NCBI GenBank assembly: GCA_018920255.1
Contig: JAHLMR010000002.1
Span: 1 to 63,498 of the forward strand
DNA length: 63,498 nt
Direction of reading: 5' to 3'
DNA from: Candidatus Aenigmatarchaeota archaeon
Lineage (GTDB): Archaea; Aenigmatarchaeota; Aenigmatarchaeia; Aenigmatarchaeales; JAHLMR01
Below, in pieces: positions 42,429 to 56,340 of this stretch; position 1 is the first letter of the stretch, and each line of letters opens with the position of its first letter. The position numbers and the translations under genes were made by a program. The notes below the pieces were generated by a model. It had not been told where the DNA came from, did not search any database, and was given only the letters and a program-made list of their open reading frames with translations.

Positions 42429-42547
42429 GCGGGGGTCGCCAAGCCAGGTCAAAGGTGCAGGACTGAGGCTCCTGTGGGTTAGTCCCTTCGTGAGAAACTT
42501 TCTTATTAAGAGAAAGTTCACGAATTCAAATCTCACCCCCCGCACCA
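42429..42547 (+). tRNA. tRNA-Leu (GAG) with a T-arm intron
   Basis: Acceptor GCGGGGG pairs perfectly with CCCCCGC (42537-42543), discriminator A at 42544 and encoded CCA at 42545-42547. The anticodon stem-loop is CAGGA-CTGAGGC-TCCTG with anticodon GAG. A GGG/CCC variable arm marks a class II tRNA. The T-stem 5' half GTGAG ends at 42494, but its loop and 3' half, TTCAAAT-CTCAC, begin at 42525: a 30-nt insert interrupts the arm between positions 53 and 54. Without it the tRNA is 86 nt, normal for leucine. Removing any other segment gives a worse T-arm. Confidence 0.93.
42495..42524 (+). other. 30-nt non-canonical intron at tRNA position 53/54
   Basis: The insert fits a bulge-helix-bulge: central helix CGTG (42489-42492)/CACG (42519-42522), 5' bulge AG^A, 3' bulge AA^T, and an 8-bp inner stem AACTTTCT/AGAAAGTT. 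Cutting after the second bulge base on each side joins GTGAG to TTCAAAT-CTCAC exactly. The outer helix is weak, so it is a relaxed motif, which needs a broad-specificity splicing endonuclease. Confidence 0.8.
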
Positions 42548-47030: not shown

Positions 47031-47627
47031 ATGTTAGAACAATTAGTAACAGCAATTGTAGATTTTATTTCAAATTCTGGCTATTTAGGAATATTTGTTT
47101 TAATGACATTAGAAAGTGCTCTAATTCCTATACCAAGTGAAATTATAATGCCCTTTTCAGGATATCTTGTATATACTGGAAAATTTGGATTTTTAGAAAC
47201 AGTTCTTGCTGGCACTTTAGGAAATCTCTTTGGTTCATTAATTGCATATGATTTAGGAAATAGATTAGGAAGAAAATGGTTAGAAAAATATCTTAAATTT
47301 ATGCATAAAGAAAAATTGATGAATAAGGTTGATAATTGGATTTTAAAATATGGATGTTATACTGCATTTTTTTCAAGAATGATGCCAGCAATAAGGACAT
47401 TTGTTTCATTTCCATTAGGTATTTCAAAAATGAATTTAAAAAAATTTTGTATTTTAACTTTTTTAGGCTCATTTATTTGGTGCATACCATTAACATATTC
47501 AGGAATTATTTTAGGTCCTTATTGGCAAAAAATTTTAGATATCTTTCATACATTTGAAATTTTATTTTTTATAATATTTATATTTGTTATTTTTATATAC
47601 TTTGAAAAAAGAAAAATATTTCAATAG
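47031..47627 (+). CDS. DedA-family membrane protein
   Basis: 198 residues with about five hydrophobic segments. Signature parts are GYLGIFVLMTLESALIPIPS, the re-entrant-like PSEIIMPFSGYLVY, GSLIAYDLGNRLGRKWLEKY and FFSRMMPAIRTFVSFPLGIS with conserved arginines (R-x-M-P-x-x-R). DedA/VTT proteins are implicated in polyprenyl-phosphate or phospholipid flipping, which would fit a cell using dolichyl phosphate. Its stop TAG at 47625-47627 overlaps the first two bases of tRNA-Gln. Confidence 0.9.
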   Translation: MLEQLVTAIVDFISNSGYLGIFVLMTLESALIPIPSEIIMPFSGYLVYTGKFGFLETVLAGTLGNLFGSLIAYDLGNRLGRKWLEKYLKFMHKEKLMNKVDNWILKYGCYTAFFSRMMPAIRTFVSFPLGISKMNLKKFCILTFLGSFIWCIPLTYSGIILGPYWQKILDIFHTFEILFFIIFIFVIFIYFEKRKIFQ

Positions 47628-47743
47628 CCCCGTCGTCTAGCGGCCAAGGATGGGGGGCTTTGGTTTTACCAAAGCTTTGAGAAGCAAAGCTTCAGTGAAA
47701 AAGAAACCCCCTGACGTAGGTTCGAATCCTACCGGGGCTACCA
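47626..47743 (+). tRNA. tRNA-Gln (TTG) with a canonical 37/38 intron
   Basis: Acceptor AGCCCCG pairs with CGGGGCT (47733-47739), discriminator A (47740), encoded CCA (47741-47743). D-stem GTCT/GGAT; anticodon stem GGGGG (47653-47657)/CCCCC (47707-47711); loop CTTTGG...A gives anticodon TTG; T-arm GTAGG-TTCGAAT-CCTAC. After removing 42 nt the tRNA is 73 nt. Its first bases overlap the DedA stop codon, so the tRNA 5' end must be cut from an mRNA or transcribed from inside that gene. Confidence 0.95.
47664..47705 (+). other. 42-nt canonical intron in tRNA-Gln
   Basis: A full bulge-helix-bulge can be drawn: outer helix GGGGG/CCCCC, central helix CTTT (47658-47661)/AAAG, 5' bulge GG^T, 3' bulge AA^A, inner helix TTTAC/GTGAA. 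Inside is a perfect hairpin AAGCTTTG/CAAAGCTT. The intron start can also form GCTTTGG/CCAAAGC with the anticodon region, a competing fold. Confidence 0.85.
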
Positions 47744-56072: not shown

Positions 56073-56088
56073 GCCGAGGTGGCATAGC
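56073..56088 (+). other. 5' end of tRNA-Ser: acceptor and D-arm start
   Basis: GCCGAGG (56073-56079) pairs with CCTCGGC at 56078+200, that is 56078 in the 3' exon numbering 56278-56284. It is listed only to mark where the 5' exon begins; the full gene is the next entry. Confidence 0.6.
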
Positions 56089-56142
56089 CAGGTAGTGCGC
56101 AGGTCTGGAGAACCTGTGCTCGAAAGAGCGCGTGAGTTCAAA

Positions 56143-56271
56143 GAACCTTCTTTGCAACTTCTTTAAAAAAGAAGTTGCATCAAGAAAGATAGTTTTTCCT
56201 GCTGAAGCTTCTTTTTTTGAAAAAGAAGCTTCGAAGAAGGTTCATCAAGAAAACTTAAAAAACTGGGAAAT
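56143..56271 (+). other. About 129-nt structured intron in the T-loop of tRNA-Ser
   Basis: The insert folds into an outer stem GAACCTTCTT/AAGAAGGTTC enclosing two perfect hairpins, GCAACTTCTT/AAGAAGTTGC and GAAGCTTCTTTTT/AAAAAGAAGCTTC, an almost tRNA-sized three-way fold. The junction, near position 59/60, is uncertain by 1-2 nt because only a short TTC/GAA central helix with bulges AAA and ATT can be drawn. A 63-codon open frame across it is not a gene. Confidence 0.75.
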
Positions 56272-56340
56272 TCTCACCCTCGGCGCCAATTTAAAGTTTT
56301 TAAATAATTATCTTCTTATTTAATTATTGAGGTGAATACT

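Follow-up and report, generated by a model that had tools for sequence, protein, structure and literature searches.

What is an intron longer than the tRNA itself doing in the T-loop of an archaeal tRNA-Ser(GGA) gene, and how did it get there? The gene (56073-56288) is positioned 3′ of the gene for ribosomal protein S10 in a 63,498-nt stretch of contig JAHLMR010000002.1, which we call the window (G+C content 25.7%). The contig belongs to a 552-kb, ~95% complete genome in 25 contigs assigned to Candidatus Aenigmatarchaeota. Since the nearest match of the S10 protein, at 82%, is in the Ca. Aenigmatarchaeota metagenome-assembled genome (MAG) Meg22_1618_Bin_66, the host is a DPANN archaeon. We propose, with good confidence, that the insert is a protein-spliced intron at position 59/60, that it is one of a family of 16 copies, and that the family has spread by recombination at the DNA level.

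Removal of 129 nt restores an intact tRNA-Ser(GGA)

Excision of nucleotides 56143-56271, between positions 59 and 60, leaves an 87-nt class II tRNA-Ser(GGA) whose acceptor and T stems are both perfect; its T-loop is TTCAAAT and the CCA is encoded. A complete cloverleaf is thus restored, as for an intron of the bulge-helix-bulge (BHB) type. Orthologues of the same 87 nt that lack the intron are found in three genomes of the same order (G006, G009, and G012), and the synteny of S10 and tRNA-Ser is maintained in relatives. Searches of the host genome, at its ~95% completeness, found no second Ser(GGA) gene.

These results agree with a first-pass annotation of the window, made from the sequence alone, which had described a T-loop intron of 129 nt near position 59/60, longer than the mature tRNA (129 versus 87 nt). 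The annotation had also described an outer stem and two perfect internal hairpins. The predicted fold agrees: an outer stem, GAACCTTCTT/AAGAAGGTTC, encloses two perfect hairpins of 12 and 14 bp, with a minimum free energy of -48.1 kcal/mol compared to -29.5 in shuffled sequences (z = -5.15; 0 of 200 shuffles as low). Rfam covariance-model scans gave zero matches to a group I or group II catalytic core, for which an intron of this length is too short. ARAGORN reported zero tRNAs in the window, missing Ser(GGA), and the Rfam match to this gene falls below the gathering threshold.

Sixteen tRNA genes contain homologous introns at position 59/60

We assembled the intron family from a genome search with the window intron, the sequences around the matches, and a second query, and read the anticodons of the carrier tRNAs manually. 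The family consists of 16 homologous introns of 53-129 nt, all at T-loop position 59/60, in 16 different tRNA genes on nine contigs. The carriers are Ser(GGA), Ser(CGA), and Ser(TGA); Leu(TAA), Leu(TAG), and Leu(CAA); Gly(TCC) and Gly(CCC); Arg(TCT) and Arg(CCT); and Lys(CTT), Met(CAT), Thr(GGT), Trp(CCA), Asn(GTT), and Phe(GAA). Every copy lies directly 3′ of TTC[AG]AA, and its excision leaves a 7-nt T-loop flanked by complementary T-stems; acceptor complementarity was confirmed by script for 15 copies and by eye for Ser(CGA). Copies in tRNAs for different amino acids are up to 99% identical (Lys/Met), with BLAST E-values down to 4.9e-44. Homologous introns in non-homologous tRNAs, the mark of a transposed family of the Thermoproteales type, are therefore present in 16 copies.

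We compiled tRNA genes from genome searches and from the stretches surrounding tRNA and hairpin matches. Among the 37 tRNAs located (Asp, initiator Met, Lys(TTT), Ser(GCT), and Gly(GCC) are examples outside this set), 18 have a split T-loop, 16 of them through the family and two, Thr(CGT) and Cys(GCA), through short introns unrelated to it. Many of the located tRNAs additionally have introns in the D-loop or anticodon loop.

A predicted relaxed splice motif and candidate processing enzymes

In all 16 copies, the TTC[AG] of the T-loop pairs with the 3′ end of the intron at three or four of four bases. A 3-nt bulge follows the paired intron bases. The helix is perfect (TTCA/TGAA) in Ser(TGA), Ser(CGA), Leu(TAG), and Leu(CAA). 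In the window copy, the central helix has three of four pairs with an A.G mismatch (GGAA) and there is no inner helix beside the bulge, a putative relaxed form of the BHB motif; the other copies have related forms. For an independent test, we turned to other genomes, mostly of Aenigmatarchaeota, and used 29 of their tRNAs with an interrupted T-loop (public examples lie on CP070804.1, WVZE01000015.1, and JAFCEM010000016.1). These were collected by stem complementarity alone, with no use of the motif; a reversed-sequence control of this collection gave 0 candidates. In the predicted register, at least three of the four pairs form in 26 of the 29 and all four in 20, compared to 0-12 of 29 when the register is shifted by 1-3. 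The splice register is therefore supported.

EndA is encoded in this genome by two overlapping open reading frames (ORFs; L248 749-1261 and 1258-1809, contig 11), ~40 bp from a tRNA-Phe gene that has a T-loop intron. The alpha-like subunit retains the Tyr and His and has an extended loop, KPIKRGPK, where the 3iey and 4fz2 chains likewise have extra residues. RtcB is also encoded. The predicted two-subunit enzyme would fit the heteromeric EndA of broad specificity that has been described where non-canonical introns abound in a lineage (PMC4033280).

Mosaic copies and the probable direction of spread

We compared the carrier genes with those of same-order genomes G006, G009, G011, and G012, all from other families. 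For 10 of the 16 isoacceptors, one or more of these relatives has an uninterrupted T-loop. Gain in the host lineage is therefore the simpler reading, and the family most likely spread within this lineage.

Judged by its identities to other copies, the window intron is a mosaic of a Thr/Lys-type 5′ part and a Ser(TGA)-type tail. Over the 5′ part, identity is 95% to Thr(GGT) and 92% to Lys but 69% to Ser(TGA); over the 3′ tail, it is 89% to Ser(TGA), 39% to Thr(GGT), and 37-39% to the Lys/Thr introns. The Gly(TCC) intron is a second mosaic.

We envisage the following course of events. The TTCA of the T-loop (54-57) would pair with the intron 3′ end, GGAA here and TGAA in the best copies, to form a relaxed BHB in which the T-stem serves as outer helix. 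Cleavage at AA^G and AT^T would be the work of the two-subunit EndA, and RtcB would join the exons. Spread would occur at the DNA level, by recombination among T-loop introns and T-loops with the palindromic hairpins assisting. Such recombination would shuffle intron ends, hairpin arms, and tails, and the window copy would be one of the resulting mosaics. The T-loop would be a permissive site because nearly all tRNAs offer TTC[AG] there for the splice helix.

Several points weigh against this explanation. The fourth central pair is mismatched (A.G, A.A, or A.C) in nine of the 16 copies, which makes the motif a relaxed one, and we infer both splicing and the exact splice sites from the sequence. 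The EndA alpha-like subunit has Ala (NIRAHML) at the position aligned with the catalytic Lys (xxRKxx) of solved archaeal EndAs, and the beta-like subunit also has Ala at that site (NIRATA); given this substitution, nuclease activity is putative. The direction, gain, depends on relatives from other families. Finally, intron similarity and T-stem similarity are uncorrelated (Mantel r = 0.01, p = 0.43).

The lack of correlation indicates that the introns move without the T-stem and that any gene-conversion tracts are short. Long-tract gene conversion, which would carry T-stems along, was accordingly ruled out overall; Arg(CCT) and Phe(GAA), whose introns are 97% identical and which have GCGCG in common, may be one exception to short tracts. 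The first-pass annotation had suggested that introns spread between related T-arms, on the grounds that both class II tRNAs in the window have T-arm introns with the same GTGAG/CTCAC stem. Spread between T-arms is upheld by the 16 homologous copies, but the argument is not valid. GTGAG/CTCAC is the tRNAs' own ancestral T-stem, present in intronless orthologues (L142, L147, and L148), and since intron similarity is independent of T-stem similarity, a common stem is not evidence for spread. The T-arm intron of the second class II tRNA, Leu(GAG), is real, but it lies at 53/54, is 30 nt long, and is unrelated.

The intron bodies of Arg(TCT) and Gly(CCC) have their best BLAST matches in reverse, yet the linker center reads forward; as proof of DNA movement, this inverted orientation is ambiguous. 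Eight TTCAAA sites lie outside ORFs of at least 80 amino acids in the window. A plain transposon with 6-bp specificity would therefore not lack intergenic targets, and yet all copies found are in T-loops.

A palindromic hairpin unit within the introns

The introns are strings of a unit that combines a palindrome, NAANCTTCTT(loop)AAGAAGNTTN, with a trailing ATCAAGAAA; two units are often placed head to head. The pattern AAGAAGN{3,7}ATCAAGAAA, which does not include the 5′ hairpin arm, has 17 matches in the genome, all within T-loop introns, and 0 in the reversed control. The arms show covariation, with full complementarity in 15 of the 20 distinct pairs, compared to a mean of 2.4 and a maximum of 8 in shuffles. 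In other genera, differently placed tRNA introns contain the unit (G003 His, G040 Ile, and several G094 tRNAs). In G094, which belongs to another Aenigmatarchaeota family, units with compensatory arms also lie between genes, directly 3′ of stop codons, and intergenic units are present in G024, G057, and G085. G024 contains long arrays of differing hairpins near or downstream of tRNA genes (L145, L202, and L417). In G057 (C2:75100), a hairpin plus ATCAAGAAA lies just downstream of an apparent signal recognition particle RNA gene.

One possibility, which we regard as doubtful but the strongest of the alternatives, is that the mobile entity is the palindromic unit itself, hairpin plus ATCAAGAAA, a DNA element resembling repetitive extragenic palindromic (REP) sequences or miniature inverted-repeat transposable elements that enters existing tRNA introns and intergenic gaps, the introns offering it a safe harbor. 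The placement of the unit in other genera, with compensatory arms, favors this idea, as do the head-to-head pairs, which recall bacterial interspersed mosaic elements (BIMEs), and the existence of unit-free T-loop introns, which are common in the phylum and also present here in Thr(CGT) and Cys. However, all 17 matches in the host genome are inside T-loop introns and none between genes. The host genome also yielded no IS200/Y1 transposase, and the insertion sequence in G094 that encodes one has ends unlike the unit, for which reasons IS200-like mobilization was rejected. More speculative still is the suggestion that Aenigmatarchaeota possess, in the NAANCTTCTT..AAGAAGNTTN-ATCAAGAAA unit, a mobile hairpin that is non-autonomous and hitherto undescribed, with T-loop introns as its safe harbor and, in the host genome, turned into its carriers.

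Possible RNA-level spread, protection, or artefact

Recombination between introns must also be weighed against spread through RNA, in which an excised (perhaps circular) intron reverse-splices into other T-loops, guided by TGAA-TTCA pairing, and is then copied into DNA. The exact splice position of all 16 copies, the lack of any T-stem sequence carried along, and an intron end that holds the target-choosing half of the helix all fit such a route. RNA copying should, however, preserve the intron ends, whereas close copies differ at both extremes (starts GAACC, GAAGAACC, and GATGAACC; tails GTTGCAGAGAA and GCTTTAGAAAA), and the mosaic copies require recombination. DNA recombination is therefore favored over exact RNA reverse splicing, which we judge improbable.

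The first-pass annotation also proposed protection against integrating elements. On this view, the introns would be kept or selected because they disrupt the T-arm sequences that viruses and plasmids use as attachment sites when they integrate. In the relevant part of PMC3293823, this idea is cited for archaea as a proposal of Randau and Soll. In its favor are the frequent use of tRNA genes for integration in archaea (PMC3293823) and the split T-loop of nearly half of the located tRNA genes (18 of 37). Our data neither support nor refute it: the uninterrupted Ser(GGA) T-arm plus acceptor has 0 matches in 2.9 million viral contigs, a weak test since the viruses of this lineage are hardly sampled. 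The intron anatomy does not require a protective role, which would account for retention, not spread, and we consider this explanation very unlikely. The 3′ junction and hairpin D likewise had no match in the viral contigs. Viral origin and viral attachment sites were both rejected as sources of these sequences: where TTCAAAGAACCTTCTTT and AAGAAGNNNNATCAAGAAAG have matches in viral contigs, the hairpin is missing, so that the matches are due to chance.

A broken gene or assembly artefact, for which the failure of standard tools to report the gene might speak, can be dismissed almost entirely, as the same insert occurs in single-copy essential isoacceptors (Met, Lys, Trp, Asn, Phe, and Gly), spread over nine contigs, with flanks that are unique and stems that are perfect, and the S10-tRNA-Ser synteny is retained in relatives.

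Other tRNA introns in the host genome and phylum

The features of the window are collected in Table 1. Elsewhere in the window, tRNA-Gln(TTG) (47626-47743) has a long hairpin-containing intron in its anticodon loop. Several tRNAs of the genome have more than one intron: tRNA-Met(CAT) (C23:659) in the D-loop, anticodon loop, and T-loop; Ser(TGA) (C25:21735) an anticodon-loop intron of >100 nt plus the T-loop intron; and Leu(TAG) (C19:4620) seemingly three. The D-loop introns of Thr(GGT), Thr(CGT), Met, and Asn lie at the same position with similar, ACAAATGCAAAAAAGAGC-like sequence and are perhaps a second small intron family. A tRNA with the anticodon loop CTTATAA, apparently Ile(UAU), is present at two contig ends (C13:3-105 and C25:7-109).

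In Aenigmatarchaeota generally, T-loop introns of unrelated sequence at 59/60 are widespread, including in the public genome CP070804.1, and their 3′ end is often TGAAAAT or TGAAATT before the T-stem.

Table 1. Features of the tRNA-Ser(GGA) gene, its intron, and the tRNA-Leu(GAG) gene in the window
Feature	Positions	Strand	Basis
tRNA-Ser(GGA) exon 1: acceptor, D-arm, anticodon GGA, variable arm, T-stem 5′ strand GTGAG, T-loop TTCAAA	56073-56142	+	100% over query 1-70; orthologues in same-order genomes
5′ bulge AA^G of predicted splice motif	56141-56143	+	motif analysis
129-nt intron, T-loop 59/60, one of 16-copy family	56143-56271	+	acceptor/T-stem complementarity, BHB-like motif
Outer stem 5′ strand GAACCTTCTT	56143-56152	+	fold, decomposition
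Perfect hairpin TGCAACTTCTTT(aaa)AAAGAAGTTGCA, unit type GCAAC/GTTGC	56153-56179	+	fold, decomposition, arm pairing
Conserved tail CATCAAGAAA 3′ of hairpin	56178-56187	+	pattern match 56169-56187
Perfect hairpin TGAAGCTTCTTTTT(ttg)AAAAAGAAGCTTCG, unit type GAAGC/GCTTC	56203-56233	+	fold, decomposition
Outer stem 3′ strand AAGAAGGTTC and second ATCAAGAAA tail	56234-56252	+	pattern match, fold, decomposition
Intron 3′ tail, mosaic junction	56234-56271	+	identity 89% to Ser(TGA) tail, 37-39% to Lys/Thr introns
Predicted 3′ splice-site motif: GGAA 56266-56269 pairs with T-loop TTCA 56137-56140	56266-56272	+	3′ bulge AT^T 56270-56272
tRNA-Ser(GGA) exon 2: T60, T-stem CTCAC, acceptor CCTCGGC, GCCA	56272-56288	+	
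tRNA-Leu(GAG) with unrelated 30-nt intron 42495-42524 at 53/54, outside the family	42429-42547	+	motif CGTG AG^A ... CACG AA^T read from sequence

Significance and relation to known systems

How protein-spliced archaeal introns move has been an open question since transposition was noticed in Thermoproteales. Here, 16 copies at one position, intact relatives, mosaics, and a modular hairpin allow a direct reading of donor, acceptor, tract length, and strand. T-loop introns are also common in Aenigmatarchaeota, and because standard finders miss tRNAs with T-loop introns, DPANN tRNA sets and the completeness estimates are probably undercounted. We found no earlier account of such intron spread in Aenigmatarchaeota in the open literature, to which our search was confined (subscription papers lay outside its scope).

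REP and BIME palindromes and IS200-type ends are bacterial. Like them, the unit described here is a short palindrome with a conserved flank, often in head-to-head pairs. Unlike them, its copies in the host genome lie only in T-loop introns, and we found neither a Y1 transposase nor a link to any known transposase.

Non-canonical archaeal tRNA introns are known at 53/54, 56/57, and 59/60 (PMC4090602). The introns of this family lie at one of these positions, with a predicted splice motif that is relaxed in a similar way, but they are 53-129 nt long with built hairpins, and T-loop introns occur in 18 of 37 located tRNAs. In the Asgard Atabeyarchaeia and Freyarchaeia, introns are reported in 92-95% of tRNA genes in the pertinent part of PMC11291895. 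As in those genomes, non-canonical tRNA introns are abundant genome-wide outside Thermoproteales; the difference is a homologous, dispersed T-loop family, of which that part of the account makes no mention.

The closest parallel is in Thermoproteales, where homologous introns occur in different tRNAs (Fujishima 2010, as described in the corresponding sections of PMC4090602 and PMC4033280). Spread there was inferred to postdate speciation, by a mechanism those sections give as unknown. In contrast, the present case concerns a DPANN lineage and one family restricted to 59/60 with visible mosaics, in which long introns are made of covarying palindromic units with a conserved tail; in other genera, these units are also present elsewhere than in introns. 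The process is thus of a known kind, but the lineage is new, and so is the modular form tied to a single site.
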